22,835 nucleotides of DNA from a virus: IMG/VR virus record IMGVR_UViG_3300025652_000591, positions 1 to 22,835 of that record; one strand, written 5' to 3'. Position 1 is the first letter of the stretch; every line of letters begins with the position of its first letter. This document shows positions 7,435-20,394 of this stretch, in pieces. The notes beneath the pieces are model-generated. The model had not been told where the DNA came from. It did no database searches and was given only the letters and a program-made list of their open reading frames with translations. The position numbers and the translations under genes were made by a program.

Positions 7435-9615
7435 ATGGCCGAAAAAATTATTTCACCTGGTGTATTTACGAATGAAATAGACCAGACATTTTTACCGGCT
7501 GCTGTGGCTGATATTGGAGCTGCTCTTATCGGACCGACACTTAAAGGTCCTGCAGGAATCCCAACTGTTGTAACATCATATTCTGATTTCCAAGCGAAAT
7601 TTGGAGATGTATTTAAATCAGGTTCGGATTCAGTCCAATTTTTAACCTCACATGCAGCTGAAGAATATTTAAAAAATTCAGACACATTAACTGTTGTTAG
7701 AGTACTTGCAGATGGAACACAAGGTGTTTCAAAAGCTACAGCTAATGTACTAACTTCTGATAGTACTGTAACAACTGGAACAACATTTGGTAGTGGTTCA
7801 ATGACAATGATAGCATCAAGTATTGAAGAATCAGATGTTATCAGAGTAACAAATGGAAGTACTGTAATTGACTTCATTGGACAAGCTGTTCCAAATGAAG
7901 ATGCGAGTGATGATTCAATAAGATTCTTTGCTAGAGGTGGTAGTGCTACAGCCTTTGCAACTAACTTTAAAAATGAATTTAATACAGTAAGTGGATTAAG
8001 TGGTTTTACCGCAACTAGTATTGCAGGTTTGATTGGTATATCAGGTTCATCTGCTGGATCTGCTGGTAATGGTTTAGTTGTTGCAACTGGTTCAGGTGCA
8101 ACATTCACAACTCAGTTTACAACTGCAGGTGGTACTGATACTGATGGAACTGAAACAATTGCATTTACATTGGAAACATTAGCTGATGGTTCAATAATGA
8201 ACAATGCTAGTACAACTGCTACAACCAATAGTATATTGATAAGTGGTTCAAAACATAATGTTAGATTTGAAGTTACTTCAAAAAATAACAACAAAGGTAC
8301 TTTTAATTTAGCTATTAGGGCTGGTAATGACAATGTTAAGAGAAAACAAACACTTGAAACATTTAATAATTTAACATTAGACCCTAATTCAACTAATTAT
8401 GTTGCAAAAGTAATCGGTGATCAAACTCAAACTGTTCAAACTGATGATGGTGTAAAATATATTAAATTAGATGGTGATTATCCAAATGCATCTAGATTCG
8501 TAAGAGTTAAATCTGTTGGTAAACAATTGATTGATTACTTAGATGAAAATGGAAACGTGAGAGTTGCTGCAAATTCATCTTCGTTACCAGCTGCTGGTAG
8601 TGGTTCATCACAAGGTGGATTTAGTGGTGGTAAAGACGGACATAGTGGATTTGATGCGTTAGGTATACAACGTGGTGATACAGCAGCTAGTCCAACTGCT
8701 CTTTTCTATGATAAGATTGTAGAAGCTAATTCACAAGGACTTAATCCAACAGCAGATGATGATGGAAAAACTGCTTACACAAATGCTCTTGACTTACTTG
8801 CTAATCAAGATGAATTTGATATTAATTTAATATTAATGCCAGGTATTATTGATTCAGTTCATACAACTGTAGCTGCTAAAGCAATAGATGTATGTGAGTC
8901 AAGGGGTGATTGTTTTACAATTCTTGACCCAGTTCCTTATGCTTCAACATTAGCAGCTGCTACTACACGAGGTGAAGCTAGAGATTCAAACTTCGCAGCT
9001 ATGTATTGGCCGTGGGTTAAAATACCTGATTCACAACTTGGAACTCAAAGATGGGTGCCACCATCAACAGTAATGGGTGGAATCTATGCATTCAATGATA
9101 GAGTTGCTCACCCCTGGTTTGCTCCGGCTGGTTTAAATCGTGGTGGAATCACAACTGCAATTCAAGCTGAAAGAAAACTAACTCAAGGTAATAGAGATTC
9201 ATTATATGATTCAAATGTTAACCCAATTGCAACATTCCCAGGACAAGGGGTGACTGTGTTTGGACAAAAAACATTACAGAAAAAATCAAGTGCTCTTGAT
9301 AGAATCAATGTAAGACGATTATTAATCAGAGTTAAGAAGTTTGTTGCTTCTTCTTCAAGATTCCTTGTATTTGAACAAAATACAGCGGCAACACGAAGAA
9401 GATTCTTAGGAATTGTTAATCCATTCTTAGAACAAGTTCAATCACAAAGTGGTTTGAGTGCGTTTAGAGTAGTGATGGATGAAACGAATAATACACCTGA
9501 CACAATTGATAGAAATCAATTAGTCGGACAATTATTCTTACAACCTACAAGAACTGCTGAGTTTATTGTATTAGACTTTACAGTACAACCAACTGGTGCT
9601 TCTTTTCCAGAGTAA
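7435..9615 (+). CDS. Contractile tail sheath protein, gp18-like
   Basis: The 726-residue subunit of the contractile sheath. The N-terminus ISPGVFTNEIDQTF followed by ALIGPTLKGPAGIPTVV is the family signature, and TLTVVRVL follows near residue 85. The C-terminal third carries the conserved assembly domain: AYWPWVKIPD-like MYWPWVKIPDS, GQGVTVFGQKTLQ, INVRRLLIRVKKFV, FEQNTAATRRRF and FIVLDFTVQPTG at the end. Residues about 120-232 form a Ser/Thr/Gly-rich insert with a strand-helix-strand layout, resembling the C-terminal half of the 173-residue protein at 2981. Surface-exposed inserts at this place are usual in T4-type sheaths. AGGAG precedes the ATG, and a terminator follows. Confidence 0.95.
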   Translation: MAEKIISPGVFTNEIDQTFLPAAVADIGAALIGPTLKGPAGIPTVVTSYSDFQAKFGDVFKSGSDSVQFLTSHAAEEYLKNSDTLTVVRVLADGTQGVSKATANVLTSDSTVTTGTTFGSGSMTMIASSIEESDVIRVTNGSTVIDFIGQAVPNEDASDDSIRFFARGGSATAFATNFKNEFNTVSGLSGFTATSIAGLIGISGSSAGSAGNGLVVATGSGATFTTQFTTAGGTDTDGTETIAFTLETLADGSIMNNASTTATTNSILISGSKHNVRFEVTSKNNNKGTFNLAIRAGNDNVKRKQTLETFNNLTLDPNSTNYVAKVIGDQTQTVQTDDGVKYIKLDGDYPNASRFVRVKSVGKQLIDYLDENGNVRVAANSSSLPAAGSGSSQGGFSGGKDGHSGFDALGIQRGDTAASPTALFYDKIVEANSQGLNPTADDDGKTAYTNALDLLANQDEFDINLILMPGIIDSVHTTVAAKAIDVCESRGDCFTILDPVPYASTLAAATTRGEARDSNFAAMYWPWVKIPDSQLGTQRWVPPSTVMGGIYAFNDRVAHPWFAPAGLNRGGITTAIQAERKLTQGNRDSLYDSNVNPIATFPGQGVTVFGQKTLQKKSSALDRINVRRLLIRVKKFVASSSRFLVFEQNTAATRRRFLGIVNPFLEQVQSQSGLSAFRVVMDETNNTPDTIDRNQLVGQLFLQPTRTAEFIVLDFTVQPTGASFPE

Positions 9616-9733: not shown

Positions 9734-10222
9734 ATGGCCGAATTATTAGAACCACAAGATATAATGTTTACCCCTTTTGAGCCAAAGCTCAAAAATAGAT
9801 TTATAATGCAAATAGATGGTATTAATGCATACTTGATTAAAACTATGAATCGTCCACAAGTTGATTCGGATGAAGTAGTGTTAGAACATATGAATGTAAC
9901 AAGATATGTTAAAGGTAAAACAAGATGGCAACCATTAGAGATTACTTTATACGACCCAATCGTACCAAGTGCCTCACAACAAGTAATTGAGTGGATTAGA
10001 TTACACCACGAATCAGTTACTGGTAGAGATGGATATGCTGACTTTTATAAGAAAAACATCACATTTAATGTTTTAGATCCTGTAGGTGCTGTTGTTGAAG
10101 AATGGGAACTAAAAGGTGCATTTATTCAAAGTGCTAATTTTGGTGACTTAGCATTTGACTCATCAGATCCTGTAGAAATTGCACTAACATTAAGATATGA
10201 TTACGCAATACTTAAATTCTAA
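9734..10222 (+). CDS. Tail tube protein, gp19-like
   Basis: The 162-residue subunit of the inner tail tube. Length equals that of T4 gp19 (163). Typical features are FTPFEPKLKNRFIMQIDG at the start, YLIKTMNRPQVDSDEV, the KGKTRWQPLEITLYDPI strand pair, a WIRLHHESVTGRDGYADFYKK segment and a final ALTLRYDYAILKF strand. It follows the sheath gene as gp19 follows gp18 in T4, but here as a separate unit with its own promoter-like element and terminator, which suits the large copy number needed. Confidence 0.94.
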   Translation: MAELLEPQDIMFTPFEPKLKNRFIMQIDGINAYLIKTMNRPQVDSDEVVLEHMNVTRYVKGKTRWQPLEITLYDPIVPSASQQVIEWIRLHHESVTGRDGYADFYKKNITFNVLDPVGAVVEEWELKGAFIQSANFGDLAFDSSDPVEIALTLRYDYAILKF

Positions 10223-10822: not shown

Positions 10823-11002
10823 ATGTCAACAGATAAATTATATAGTGAAATAAAAGAATTATTCGAACAATTTGAAGAAAATCATTCAGTATTTTCAGAT
10901 AAGGGTACAAAAGCAGCTGGTGGTAGAGCAAGAAAAGCTATCGGTGAAATTAAGAAGTTAGTTACAGGTTATAGACAAGCGTCTGTTTCCGAATCAAAAT
11001 AA
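10823..11002 (+). CDS. Histone H1-like small basic protein
   Basis: A short gene of 59 residues with TAGGAGA directly upstream. The sequence has an N-terminal helix (LYSEIKELFEQFEENHS) followed by KGTKAAGGRARKAIGEIKKL and VTGYRQAS. The pattern K-G-x-K-A-A-G-x-R-A-R-K-A-I is that of the small histone H1-like (Hc1-type) proteins of Bacteroidetes and of several phages. It probably binds or condenses DNA, or follows DNA into the head. It lies between muramidase and baseplate genes and ends 12 bases before the next start. Confidence 0.7.
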   Translation: MSTDKLYSEIKELFEQFEENHSVFSDKGTKAAGGRARKAIGEIKKLVTGYRQASVSESK

Positions 11003-11014
11003 TCGGAGGTTACA

Positions 11015-11764
11015 ATGGCAGATAATAAATTTCCAAGTGAAATGATTGATTTACCAAGTGAAGGTAAGTTATATGGAAAAGATTCCCCATTAAAAGATGG
11101 TAAAATCGAAATCAAGTATATGACTGCAAAAGAAGAAGATATATTGACATCACAGAATTTAATTAAAAAAGGTGTGGTGATTGATAGATTAATAGATTCT
11201 TTAATATTAACAACGGGTGTTAAATCGGATGATTTAGTTCTTGGTGATAAAAATGCAGTGATGGTTGCAGCTAGAATATTAGCATACGGACCAGAATATA
11301 GTTGTGAAGTTAGTAATCCCAGTACAGGTGAGGTTTCAACTCAAACATTTAATTTAGCAGATTGTCCATTTAAAAAATTACCAGAAGGAATAACAGAAAA
11401 TAAGTTTGAAGTTGATTTACCAATAGCTAAGAAAAAAGTAACTTTTAAATTATTGACTGGTAAAGAAGAAGTTCTAATAAATGAAGAACTAAAAGCTTCA
11501 GAAAAAGTTAATGCTGAGGTAAAACCAGAGTTAACTACAAGATTAAGACATACCATTACATCAGTTGATGGTGATGATTCGGGTACTACAATTAATGGTT
11601 TTGTTCAAAATATGTTAGCTAGAGATTCCATGTATTTGAGAAATGAAATTAGAAAAGTAACACCTGATATTGAGTTATCTCAAGAAATAGAAATAGGAGG
11701 AGAAACTGTCAAGGTAGATATACCAATGACAGTTGGGTTTTTTTGGCCTAGCACCGAAGGATAA
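11015..11764 (+). CDS. T4 baseplate family protein (gp26/gp51-like), tail assembly
   Basis: The 249-residue product carries the family signature FPSEMIDLPSEGKLYGK followed by IEIKYMTAKEEDILTSQN, LIKKGVVIDRLIDSLI, AARILAYGPEY and the closing PMTVGFFWPSTEG. In T4 the family comprises gp26 and gp51, late proteins needed for baseplate hub assembly. It lies directly before the tape measure region, where long-tailed phages keep tail assembly chaperones (G/GT type). GGAGG precedes the ATG. The last codons contain GGG TTT TTT TGG, where ribosomes probably shift into the frame of the next coding region, giving a longer minor product. Confidence 0.85.
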   Translation: MADNKFPSEMIDLPSEGKLYGKDSPLKDGKIEIKYMTAKEEDILTSQNLIKKGVVIDRLIDSLILTTGVKSDDLVLGDKNAVMVAARILAYGPEYSCEVSNPSTGEVSTQTFNLADCPFKKLPEGITENKFEVDLPIAKKKVTFKLLTGKEEVLINEELKASEKVNAEVKPELTTRLRHTITSVDGDDSGTTINGFVQNMLARDSMYLRNEIRKVTPDIELSQEIEIGGETVKVDIPMTVGFFWPSTEG

Positions 11765-11963
11765 ACCTAAACTTCACGAACAAATATTTCAATTAATGTA
11801 TTATGGACAAGGATTCACTCATTCTGATGTGTATGATATGCCCGTATATTTACGAAACTTTTACTACAAACAATTAGCTGATACTCGTAAAAAAGAAAAT
11901 GAAGAGGTGAAAAAAGCTCAACAAAAATCAAAACCCCCAATGAATCCAAGATTTAAAAGATAA
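11733..11963 (+). CDS. Frameshift extension of the gp26/gp51-like protein
   Basis: An open frame overlaps the end of the preceding gene. It has no credible initiator: a TTG at 11733 lacks a correctly spaced ribosome site, and the ATG at 11796 lacks one too. It is therefore best read as the C-terminal part of a fusion. The part after the shift is 72 residues: GLAPKDKPKLHEQIFQLMYY, then GQGFTHSDVYDMPVYLRNFY and YKQLADTRKKENEEVKKAQ, with a Lys-rich end. The GxGFTxxDVYxxPVYLRNFYY motif occurs in a small protein next to the gp26/gp51-like gene in other marine T4-like phages, as far as I recall. By analogy to the T domain of GT chaperones it may contact the tape measure. Confidence 0.7.
   Translation: MGFFGLAPKDKPKLHEQIFQLMYYGQGFTHSDVYDMPVYLRNFYYKQLADTRKKENEEVKKAQQKSKPPMNPRFKR
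11735..11746 (+). other. Probable programmed frameshift site (+1 or -2)
   Basis: In the zero frame the bases read GGG TTT TTT TGG, with seven T from 11738 to 11744. A peptidyl-tRNA reading TTT can re-pair with TTT after +1 (or after -2) slippage, moving into the frame that reads GGC CTA GCA. The product would be about 315 residues (+1) or 316 (-2). The second frame has a stop at 11727-11729 and no plausible ribosome-bound start before 11796, so slippage is the best explanation for its translation. No strong downstream hairpin is seen. Confidence 0.65.
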
Positions 11964-12289: not shown

Positions 12290-14074
12290 ATGGCTAATAA
12301 ATTCAAAGAACAATTAGATTTTGCTAGACAGGCTAATGAATTAACTAAAAAAAGAATGGAAAATGAAAAGTTTATTGATTCTACTCTTCAGGATAGGTCA
12401 AAAATTTTAGATAATATTGTTGCAAACGAAAAAGATATAAGTAAACTAACTAATATACAGAAAGATATTACATCTAAAATAAATAATTTAAATAAAACAG
12501 GTCATACTGAAGCAGCTAAAAGATATAAAACTGAACAAAAAATTGTTACAAATAAAATAAAAGAAATAAAACTTCAGCAAATGGCCAATAATTTAATTGA
12601 AGGTGCAACAGAAGCCGCTAATGAAGTTGATAGTGCTTTTGGTGGAATAGGTTCAAGTATAAAAGGATTTGTATTAAATCCACTAACCGCTGGTATTGCT
12701 CTATTATTAGCATTTAATGCTCAACAAGAAACAATCGCTAAACAATTTGGTGGAATAGGTGTTACAAAATTTAGAGATGAATTAGCTGGAGCAAATCAAA
12801 ACTTTGTAAGATTAGGTTTATCAAGTGAAGATGCTCAGTCTTCAATATCACAGATAGCTAATGATTTTGGTATTGGTGTAAGTGAAGCTAGTAAATTATC
12901 AAACAATGTAGCTAGAATTGCATCTTCAACTGGTATAAGTGTAGAGGAATCTGCAAAATTAGTTGGATTATTTACACAAACTCAAGGACTGACTGGACAA
13001 CAAGCTGAAGATTTATTATTAGGGGCTAGACAACTCGCGGATGCAAACAATATTCCATTTGATAAACTTCTATCAGATGTAGCTACAGATACAGAAGTAT
13101 TTGCAAGATTTTCAAAAGATGGTGGTGAGAATTTACTAAGAGCAGCAGTTCAAGCTAGAAAACTTGGACTTGATTTATCAACAGTAGCAAAAACAGCAGA
13201 TGATTTACTTGACTTTCAAGGTTCATTGAATGCTGAAATTGAAGCTTCAGTTCTTTTAGGTAGAAATGTAAACTTACAAAAAGCAAGAGAATTATCTTTA
13301 GCAAATGATATAGAAGGATTACAAAAAGAAATAGTAAGACAAGTTGGTACAGAAGCTGAGTTCAATAAATTAAATAGAATAGAGAGAGATGGGTTGGCTC
13401 GTGCATTTGGTATGAATGTTGCTGATATACAAAAATTAGTTTCAAAACAAGGTGAACAACTATCTTTACAAGGTGAAATCAATAAATTAACTGCAGAAAA
13501 TGAAATACCAGAGGATACACTTACAAGTGTTGCGAAGATTTTAGCAGACTTTCAAACAATTGGTTTGGAATTGGCTGAAAGTATTGGCCCCTCATTAAAT
13601 GCTGTTTTGGGATTTGCTAATGGTATTTTGAGTGCACTTCAAGCCACGGTTGGAGTTGGACCAGGTTTGTTAGGAATATTTGCAGCTATGAAAGGTCACT
13701 TATTACTTTCTGCATTCAGTATGAGAACAATAGCATCTAGTGCTATTTTAACAGCGTTTGCTAGGAATCCTATTATGGGTTCTATAGGATTTGGTTTGGG
13801 TGTGGCAGCAGTTACTTCAGCTATGTCAGCGATTAATAATGTAGCCAAACCTGCATCTGCTCAAGAAGGTGGTATCACAACACAGGAAGGTTTGGTTAAT
13901 GTTCACCCACAAGAAGCAATTGTTCCAATTGAAAAATTAGGTGGAATGATTAAAGATGCTATGAGGCCTGTGGTTGAAGAAAATAAAAGAATGAGAGAAC
14001 AAAACGACACATTGATAGCTGAAACCAGAAAACAAGCTGGAAGATTTGCTACAGCTATGGAGGGTTTATCGTAA
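12290..14074 (+). CDS. Tail tape measure protein
   Basis: The 594-residue protein would set tail length and be ejected through the tube. Residues 1-100 are a charged coiled coil. Residues about 126-142 (VLNPLTAGIALLLAF) are hydrophobic. Residues 150-400 are long Ala/Leu/Ser-rich helices (ISQIANDFGIGVSEASKLSN; LVGLFTQTQGLTGQQAEDLL). A second hydrophobic part (about 440-520) contains GLLGIFAAMKGHLLLSAF and GSIGFGLGVAAVTSAMSAI. The end has GGITTQEGLVNVHPQEAIVP and a final helix, a common end for tape measures. At roughly 1.5 angstrom per residue the tail would be near 90 nm, a family rule of thumb. No strong Shine-Dalgarno precedes the ATG, so coupling to the upstream gene is likely. Confidence 0.85.
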   Translation: MANKFKEQLDFARQANELTKKRMENEKFIDSTLQDRSKILDNIVANEKDISKLTNIQKDITSKINNLNKTGHTEAAKRYKTEQKIVTNKIKEIKLQQMANNLIEGATEAANEVDSAFGGIGSSIKGFVLNPLTAGIALLLAFNAQQETIAKQFGGIGVTKFRDELAGANQNFVRLGLSSEDAQSSISQIANDFGIGVSEASKLSNNVARIASSTGISVEESAKLVGLFTQTQGLTGQQAEDLLLGARQLADANNIPFDKLLSDVATDTEVFARFSKDGGENLLRAAVQARKLGLDLSTVAKTADDLLDFQGSLNAEIEASVLLGRNVNLQKARELSLANDIEGLQKEIVRQVGTEAEFNKLNRIERDGLARAFGMNVADIQKLVSKQGEQLSLQGEINKLTAENEIPEDTLTSVAKILADFQTIGLELAESIGPSLNAVLGFANGILSALQATVGVGPGLLGIFAAMKGHLLLSAFSMRTIASSAILTAFARNPIMGSIGFGLGVAAVTSAMSAINNVAKPASAQEGGITTQEGLVNVHPQEAIVPIEKLGGMIKDAMRPVVEENKRMREQNDTLIAETRKQAGRFATAMEGLS

Positions 14075-19149: not shown

Positions 19150-20394
19150 ATGTATTGTGTTATACCTATATTTAAAGAACCTTTCCTACATCCATTACAC
19201 AAAAACAATGGATTATCAGCTCTATGGTGTCAACCAGAATCTGCAGAAGAACCATTCTTTATAATTCAAAAACATCCTGATTCGGATGATATACTTCAAG
19301 ATTACAAGTGGTTAGATGAAGAATTTATTGTAACACCTGATAAAAAAATATTAAATCATTTCTATGAATTTAAAGATGTAGTGGATAAAAACTTCATTTG
19401 GTGGAATGAAACGGGTAAACCATTTGATAAAAATATATCTAATAATGCAATAGATTTTCTGAGTAATAAGTTCTACAATGTTAAAAAACTTAACGAAATC
19501 ATACCATTATCGAAACATAATGAGTATTGTAGTGACATCTATAAGGGAATGGCTAGAGCATATACAGGTGAGAATGATGATTATATGAATGATGTTGTGA
19601 ATGCATTTACATCAATTGAGAAAAATGGTATCAAGGTTTCAGATGATATTTGTGACATATTTGATATGAGAGTTAAGAAACATATATCTAATGGTAAATT
19701 ATATTCACAATACAATCTATGGACAACAACAGGTCGTCCAAGTAATTCATTTGGTTCAGTTAACTTTGCAGCTCTACCACCTGAGAAGAGAAAAGGGTTT
19801 GTGGCTGAAAATGATTCATTGATAGAATTTGACTTTGATGCATATCACTTGAGGTTAATCGCTGACTTGGTTGATTATGATTTTGGTAAAGATTCAGTAC
19901 ATCAACACCTTGCAGATTTCTATGGTTCAACATATGAAGAATCTAAACAAATATCATTTAAATTACTTTATGGGGGAATAACAAAGGAAATAAGAGAAAA
20001 AGTACCTTTTTTCAATAAAGTACATAATTATATAAATAAGAAGTGGAGTGAAATAAATACTCATAATCTTGTTTATACTGATATTTATAGACGGAAACTA
20101 TTATTTAAGAACTATGAAGATATGAATAGAAATAAAGTTTTTAACTATTTAATTCAGGCTTATGAGACAGAATCAAATATTAAGAAGATTTTATTAATTC
20201 AAGACTATTTATTAGGGAAGAAGACAAAATTGGTTTTATATGGATATGATAGTTTCTTATTTGACTTTTCAAACCAAGATGGAGTGGAAACTTTGAGAGA
20301 AATAAAATCAATTTTAGAAGAAAACAAACATTACACCAAATCCAAAATGGGTTTAAATTATGGTGAAATGCAAGACATTACAAAGAGGTTATAA
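19150..20394 (+). CDS. Compact family-A DNA polymerase-like protein with altered motifs
   Basis: A 414-residue protein whose residues 190-414 follow the order of PolA motifs. TGRPSNSFGSVNFAALP (194-210) matches TGRLSSxxPNLQNIP. Motif A is FDFDAYHLRLIA (Asp228, Arg235). Motif B is ESKQISFKLLYG (Lys266, Phe270, Tyr274, Gly275). FNYLIQAYETES (331-342) matches the NxxIQG region, and motif C is LYGYDSFLFDF (Asp367). Both metal-binding Asp residues are kept. The motif A Glu (ELR) is His233, and motif C His-Asp-Glu is Tyr-Asp-Ser. The first 190 residues show no exonuclease motif I recognise. T4-like phages normally use a family-B polymerase, so this may be a repair or accessory enzyme, a primase-like activity or a non-catalytic relic. 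The start lies directly at the promoter, without a good ribosome site. Confidence 0.75.
   Translation: MYCVIPIFKEPFLHPLHKNNGLSALWCQPESAEEPFFIIQKHPDSDDILQDYKWLDEEFIVTPDKKILNHFYEFKDVVDKNFIWWNETGKPFDKNISNNAIDFLSNKFYNVKKLNEIIPLSKHNEYCSDIYKGMARAYTGENDDYMNDVVNAFTSIEKNGIKVSDDICDIFDMRVKKHISNGKLYSQYNLWTTTGRPSNSFGSVNFAALPPEKRKGFVAENDSLIEFDFDAYHLRLIADLVDYDFGKDSVHQHLADFYGSTYEESKQISFKLLYGGITKEIREKVPFFNKVHNYINKKWSEINTHNLVYTDIYRRKLLFKNYEDMNRNKVFNYLIQAYETESNIKKILLIQDYLLGKKTKLVLYGYDSFLFDFSNQDGVETLREIKSILEENKHYTKSKMGLNYGEMQDITKRL

Follow-up and report, generated by a model that had tools for sequence, protein, structure and literature searches.

The window, by which we mean the whole 22,835-nucleotide stretch of the viral record IMGVR_UViG_3300025652_000591, represents a structural module of a T4-like myophage. 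Its genes are arranged in the order gp23 capsid, gp18, gp19, GH108 lysozyme, a small Hc1-like gene, the two frames studied here (ORF1 or TAC-N, and ORF2 or TAC-C), a small open reading frame and a tape measure candidate (Table 1). The ORF1/ORF2 locus is flanked by the tail tube gene and the tape measure candidate, as expected of a chaperone gene of the G/GT type. In Flavobacterium phage immuto, the tape measure is annotated at the position equivalent to that of our candidate, and the order of sheath, tube, hub and tape measure is common to the window and immuto. The isolate immuto and the Flavobacteriales bins among the relatives hint at the hosts of this large, mostly uncultivated T4-like lineage, which are probably Bacteroidota. 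The Hc1-like gene encodes a histone H1-like protein of 59 aa (10823–11002; PF07432, E = 2.8e-15), whose position amid tail genes is unusual for a phage. A 414-aa frame adjoining the baseplate genes (19150–20394) gives a weak match to DNA polymerase A (E = 1.7e-5, below the cutoff).

Table 1. Features of the candidate chaperone locus and its neighbours in the window.
Feature	Position	Strand	Basis or remark
Tail sheath	7435..9615	+	context
Tail tube gp19	9734..10222	+	context
TAC-N (ORF1), putative short chaperone of the T4 gp26/gp51 family, 249 aa, 27.5 kDa	11015..11764	+	PF12322, phrog_150, AlphaFold2
AGGAGG, 37 bases 5′ of the T-run	11695..11700	+	stimulator role unsupported, given its distance and variable position
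TGA shutting the +1 frame upstream	11727..11729	+	sequence
Putative slippery site TTT TTT TGG CCT (0 frame), read TTT GGC CT in the +1 frame	11738..11749	+	site comparison across loci
Base presumed skipped in a +1 shift	11744..11744	+	inferred from site variants
TAC-C (ORF2), 72-residue C-terminal domain, +1 frame, predicted helical hairpin	11745..11963	+	frame, profile, model
0-frame stop TAA, four codons past CCT	11762..11764	+	sequence
Probable tape measure protein	12290..14074	+	TMP_3 match E 0.017, below cutoff (weak)

ORF1 scores 27.8 bits against PF12322 (cutoff 24.5) and matches phrog_150 with an E-value of 8e-9. Its alignment with the T4/cyanophage gp26 profile by hhalign gives an E-value of 2.2e-5, the hhalign probabilities of 63–77% for the T4 gp26/gp51 profile matches being moderate. 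The two frames were modelled separately by AlphaFold2, and both models are confident (pLDDT 90.8 for ORF1 and 85.4 for ORF2). A sequence search of solved structures returned no relative, and a PDB search by Foldseek alone with the ORF1 model gave nothing significant. Among 834 chains compared by VIA-align, the ORF1 model is closest to YqbN (3klu; Z 5.4, rmsd 4.4, 88 aligned) and then to the HK97 tail assembly chaperone (2ob9; Z 5.2, rmsd 3.4, 78 aligned), both matches being modest with Z below 8, and the third-best chain reaches a Z of 3.8. The 3klu entry, titled only 'protein yqbn' in the PDB, is the tail chaperone of the SKIN element. The analogy with tail assembly chaperones drawn in the first-pass annotation is supported by this structural match together with the homology to T4 gp26/gp51.

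ORF2 comprises 72 residues counted from GGC at 11745, with its stop at 11961–11963, and its predicted fusion with TAC-N would have 315 aa and 35.6 kDa. In the +1 frame, the differences in ORF2 between relatives number 679, 403 and 1769 at the first, second and third codon positions, respectively; ORF2 is therefore a coding frame. A fold search with the ORF2 model gave no informative match, and the single-sequence match to phrog_634 reaches only 0.087. Against the C-terminal profile of gp51, hhalign gives a moderate match (E = 6.9e-5, probability 63%, 39 columns), which makes ORF2, with moderate confidence, the counterpart of the T4 gp51 C-terminal domain.

The relation of the two frames to the T4 proteins can be read from phrog_150, to which T4 gp51 aligns over the full length and T4 gp26 in all but the tail. 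Within this PF12322/phrog_150 family, gp51 of T4 carries the N part and the C domain (which here lies in the +1 frame), and gp26 carries the N part alone. T4, whose gp26 and gp51 are hub assembly chaperones, would be the two-gene version of this chaperone pair, as the 2022 study of Vladimirov et al. is cited as proposing (PMC10885494 and PMC12846349); it differs from the window in having two separate, divergent genes and no frameshift. The same phrog is split across two frames in P-SSM2, S-PM2 and HTVC008M, and the matches to gp26 and gp51 in KVP40 likewise occupy overlapping frames. Cyanophages, pelagiphage and KVP40 all resemble the window in having a single gp26 gene and, overlapping it downstream, a frame for the gp51 C domain; unlike in the window clade, their shift is −1. 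In all 80 P-SSM2-like loci, a single codon separates T TTT TTC from a stop, and the −1 frame leads into the gp51 domain; T TTT TTC is also present in P-SSM2, S-PM2 and KVP40, and HTVC008M has T TTT TTT. The gp51 of cyanophages and of the marine vibriophage was described as missing the first ~200 residues (Sullivan et al. 2010, PMC3037559).

Near its 3′ end ORF1 reads GGG TTT TTT TGG CCT in frame, with a run of seven T at 11738–11744. The 0-frame codons are TTT (11738–11740), TTT (11741–11743), TGG (11744–11746) and CCT (11747–11749). The canonical X XXY YYZ arrangement for a −1 shift does not apply to the window, as ORF2 is in the +1 frame. The junction peptides predicted for the phage of the window are VDIPMTVGFFGLAPK for a +1 shift, VDIPMTVGFFFGLAPK for a −2 shift and VDIPMTVGFFWPSTEG for no shift. 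The first-pass annotation is correct in every coordinate that it gives.

Among 80 IMG/VR relatives of ORF1 (46–84% identical), nearly all have the same junction. The comparison was made over 233 distinct loci from IMG/VR relatives, scans seeded from distant members, genome contigs and annotated phages, with the frame of ORF2 assigned by an HMM of ORF2; these loci are related, so that the counts are not counts of independent events. In 226 of the 233, including the isolate genomes of Mel-JY01, immuto, SP-15, LIS04 and GXN1, ORF2 is a +1-frame continuation of ORF1. Each of the 226 carries, at one or other of the slip codons, a TTT in frame with T or C as the next base, which would place UUU-(U/C) at the P site in each case (the sites of three, L084, L085 and L087, were read by eye and not anchored by script). 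The proposal of the first-pass annotation that a frameshift joins a gp26/gp51-family frame to a second one is thus supported by 226 relatives as well as by the homology of both parts. Homopolymers are error-prone, and the T-run could in principle come from an error of sequencing or assembly, or the gene could be a decayed one. However, 226 loci drawn from independent assemblies and isolate genomes show this relation of the two frames, which refutes the explanation for the family, and its probability for the window is practically nil. No in-frame fused version occurs among the loci of this clade. A scan seeded with SP-15 recovered SP-15 alone. Shewanella phage 1/4 carries an annotation of a tail assembly chaperone, whose gene is not within 1–45 kb.

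The composition of the site departs from chance. The sites are TTT TTT TGG (177 loci), TTC TTT TGG (16), TTT TTT TAC (13) and TTT CTT TGG (11), plus single variants. Of the isolates, Microcystis phage Mel-JY01 has TTT TTT TGG CCT and immuto has TTT CTT TGG CCT. The first codon is either TTT or TTC, and the second is never TTC (TTT in 122/122 Phe cases), the Phe codons elsewhere in ORF1 being TTT in 81%. With clusters at 80% identity, the second codon is TTT in 96/96 Phe cases against a baseline of 683:175 (Fisher p 2e-9, with relatedness not fully removed). The +1 A-site codon ends in C in 101/101 (GGC 91, ACC 9 and TCC 1); where it encodes Gly it is GGC in 91/91, whereas GGC makes up 7% of the Gly codons there. 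The C-ending codon is consistent with efficient capture through a Watson-Crick pair, although the same base also fixes a 0-frame Pro.

Four distant +1 loci, SP-15 (L085), LIS04 (L087), GXN1 (L086) and L310, have the sites TTT TTT CAC, TTT TTT AGT, TTC TTT CGT and TTC TTT CGG, respectively, and share CCCGAT shortly downstream, possibly a second +1 motif. Two further chaperone loci (L307 and L308) lie near both ends of a single 306-kb MAG contig, NHDW01000006.1, which is probably an overlapping, circularly permuted contig of a jumbo phage binned as Methylococcaceae.

An alternative interpretation might be that ORF2 is a separate small protein, made by its own initiation or by termination-reinitiation and not fused to ORF1. 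According to the first-pass annotation, the second frame has no usable start codon. This does not hold strictly for the window, in which a TTG (11733–11735) lies in the +1 frame between the TGA and the T-run and could serve such an initiation, but it holds for 57 of 117 complete relatives, whose +1 frame contains no ATG, GTG or TTG ahead of the site. In 25 of the 117 a +1 stop directly abuts the first slip codon, and the first ATG past the site is mostly 19–35 codons inside the conserved ORF2 domain. gp51 is annotated as a gene of its own in KVP40 and P-SSM2, yet T4 gp51 carries both parts in one chain. A stand-alone ORF2 with an ATG does exist in three loci. L285 (TTC TTG TAT) and L290 (TTC CTT TGG) have a stop codon barring the fusion, and the ATG of ORF2, which adds ~28 N-terminal residues, overlaps or abuts the ORF1 stop (locus position 2208). 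The three loci nearest to L290 (L385, L387 and L388, 68–69% identical) have TTT CTT TGG and are +1, whereas L290 is closed. In L404, the frame of a GIY-YIG homing endonuclease (227 aa, named from its sequence) sits exactly at the junction, from locus position 2190 onwards; the site has decayed to TTC TTC TGG, and ORF2 has its own ATG farther down together with a stub similar to the ORF1 terminus (VPLGLNLF). Homologues whose second frame has its own start, which the first-pass annotation had named as counting against frameshifting, are thus found, but only in two of the 233 loci and in the endonuclease-split one, and all three have lost the slippery site. Initiation of ORF2 as a separate protein in the window is therefore very unlikely.

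Seven of the 233 loci are not +1, six inside the clade and one in the distant phage LR756511 (L088). Besides the three above, the clade includes three loci (L208, L240 and L317) that read A AAT TTC TTC TGG, without TTT-(T/C), and have ORF2 in the −1 frame; the A AAT TTC ahead of ORF2 fits the form X XXY YYZ. The site and the frame therefore change together in the clade, since the 226 loci with TTT-(T/C) are +1 and the six without it are not. LR756511 has T TTT TTC with ORF2 in −1, and the canonical −1 arrangement is present in it, in these three loci and in Kyanoviridae. Given that in-frame UUU-U is also found in the −1 sites of the cyanophages and LR756511, UUU-U appears to be necessary, yet does not set the direction by itself.

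What, then, is the direction of the slip at the T-run? The first-pass annotation left it as +1 or −2, and the seven T of the window indeed permit tRNA-Phe to move two bases back, as phage Mu tail genes are said to do, with an identical frame outcome and one extra Phe (TVGFFFGLAPK). However, at the 17 +1-open loci with TTC TTT TGG or TTC TTT TAC, a −2 shift would put tRNA-Phe on UCU, and at the 11 +1-open loci with TTT CTT TGG it would put tRNA-Leu on UUC. A +1 shift is favoured over −2, because the 17 TTC TTT loci need only a move from UUU to UUU for +1, and we regard the −2 shift as very unlikely. It might also be imagined that the RNA polymerase slips on the 7-base homopolymer, giving transcripts shortened by one base or lengthened by two. 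Variants with only three or four T (TTC TTT TGG and TTT CTT TGG) nevertheless keep the arrangement, and we give hardly any credence to this explanation.

The first-pass annotation further proposed that AGGAGG might make the ribosomes pause. Motifs resembling Shine-Dalgarno (SD) sequences are enriched at −45 to −24 (89 loci vs 57 ± 5 in the synonymous null), but their position varies within some 17 bases and is too distant from the P site, and AGGAGG in the window belongs to this scattered, moderately enriched class, 27–43 bases upstream. Close upstream, SD-like motifs are depleted (5 loci vs 16 expected), and GAGG or GGAG within 20 nt upstream is found in 5/127 loci. In view of its distance from the P site, the scattered position and the depletion of closer motifs, AGGAGG was not adopted as a pausing element and is probably not a stimulator. 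Bacteroidota make weak use of SD sequences, which would fit the absence of a close one if the hosts are Bacteroidota. No excess stability of a hairpin or pseudoknot was found downstream, with a mean z of −0.71 compared with −0.39 and −0.70 elsewhere.

We consider it very probable that this locus gives rise, through +1 programmed frameshifting, to two forms of a tail assembly chaperone of the G/GT type. Most likely, one gene gives a short and a long chaperone, with some ribosomes skipping one base at TTTTTTTGGCCT. The best reading of the products as TAC-N and TAC-NC comes from the conservation of the frame, the co-variation of site and frame, the homology to gp26/gp51, the modest fold match and the position of the gene; that the shift takes place in cells, its direction and frequency, and the chaperone role are what we infer from these. 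In the proposed mechanism, most ribosomes would reach the 0-frame stop of ORF1 and release TAC-N (249 aa). In a minority, when tRNA-Phe in the P site is paired with the second TTT (11741–11743) and the A site is occupied by TGG, the Trp codon, tRNA-Phe would move one base forward and re-pair on TTT at 11742–11744. tRNA-Gly would then enter at GGC and reading would go on to 11963, giving TAC-NC (315 aa) with the junction TVGFF/GLAPK. If lambda G and GT are a guide, the short form in many copies and the long form in few would together cover the tape measure protein and recruit the tail tube subunits.

Lambda G/GT and the tail assembly chaperones of other long-tailed phages are reportedly covered by Xu, Hendrix and Duda in 2004. 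Like lambda G/GT, the window has a short protein and a C-terminally extended form, a slip near the 3′ end and a position between tube and tape measure, and its modelled N domain shows a modest resemblance to HK97 2ob9 and YqbN 3klu among chaperones of this type; unlike lambda, its shift would be +1 instead of −1, and there is no detectable sequence similarity. In bacterial prfB (CUU UGA C), the P-site tRNA slips forward onto a U-rich codon and the +1 codon ends in C. The proposed slip shares both features, but the window clade has no SD element 3 nt upstream, and its A site holds a sense codon (UGG or UAC) and not a stop. The abstract of the 2022 study by Vladimirov, Gautam and Davidson is said to name genes 26 and 51 and to report frameshifting kept in several T4-like groups. 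As cited by others, this study (Virology 566:9-15) proposes short and long chaperone genes in T4-like phages (PMC10885494) and poly-T −1 signals in other T4-likes (PMC12846349). A recoding review of 2016 regarded G-T frameshifting as conserved among long-tailed phages 'except T4', and noted a very likely +1 frameshift in the tail chaperone gene of the haloarchaeal myovirus HSTV-2 (PMC5009743), which resembles our case in the +1 shift in such a gene and differs in its archaeal host. The two texts citing Vladimirov et al. do not mention the +1 site, and we found no description of the +1 form or of a switch of direction in a literature in which that study is represented by the papers citing it. 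Frameshifted chaperones of T4-like phages had already been proposed; what is added here, unless contained in Vladimirov et al. itself, is the +1 version and the switches of direction.

It seems reasonably likely to us that this lineage uses a +1 slip at UUU UGG C that calls for no stop codon, SD element or RNA structure, and that the fusion has been re-made repeatedly, as +1, −1, two genes or a separate frame. If this is true, selection would hold the fusion and leave the direction of the slip free to switch. On the practical side, ORF2 goes unannotated or is labelled hypothetical in the isolates checked. The +1 site, short and apparently free of helpers, with natural variants that switch direction, would offer a system for asking what decides between +1 and −1.
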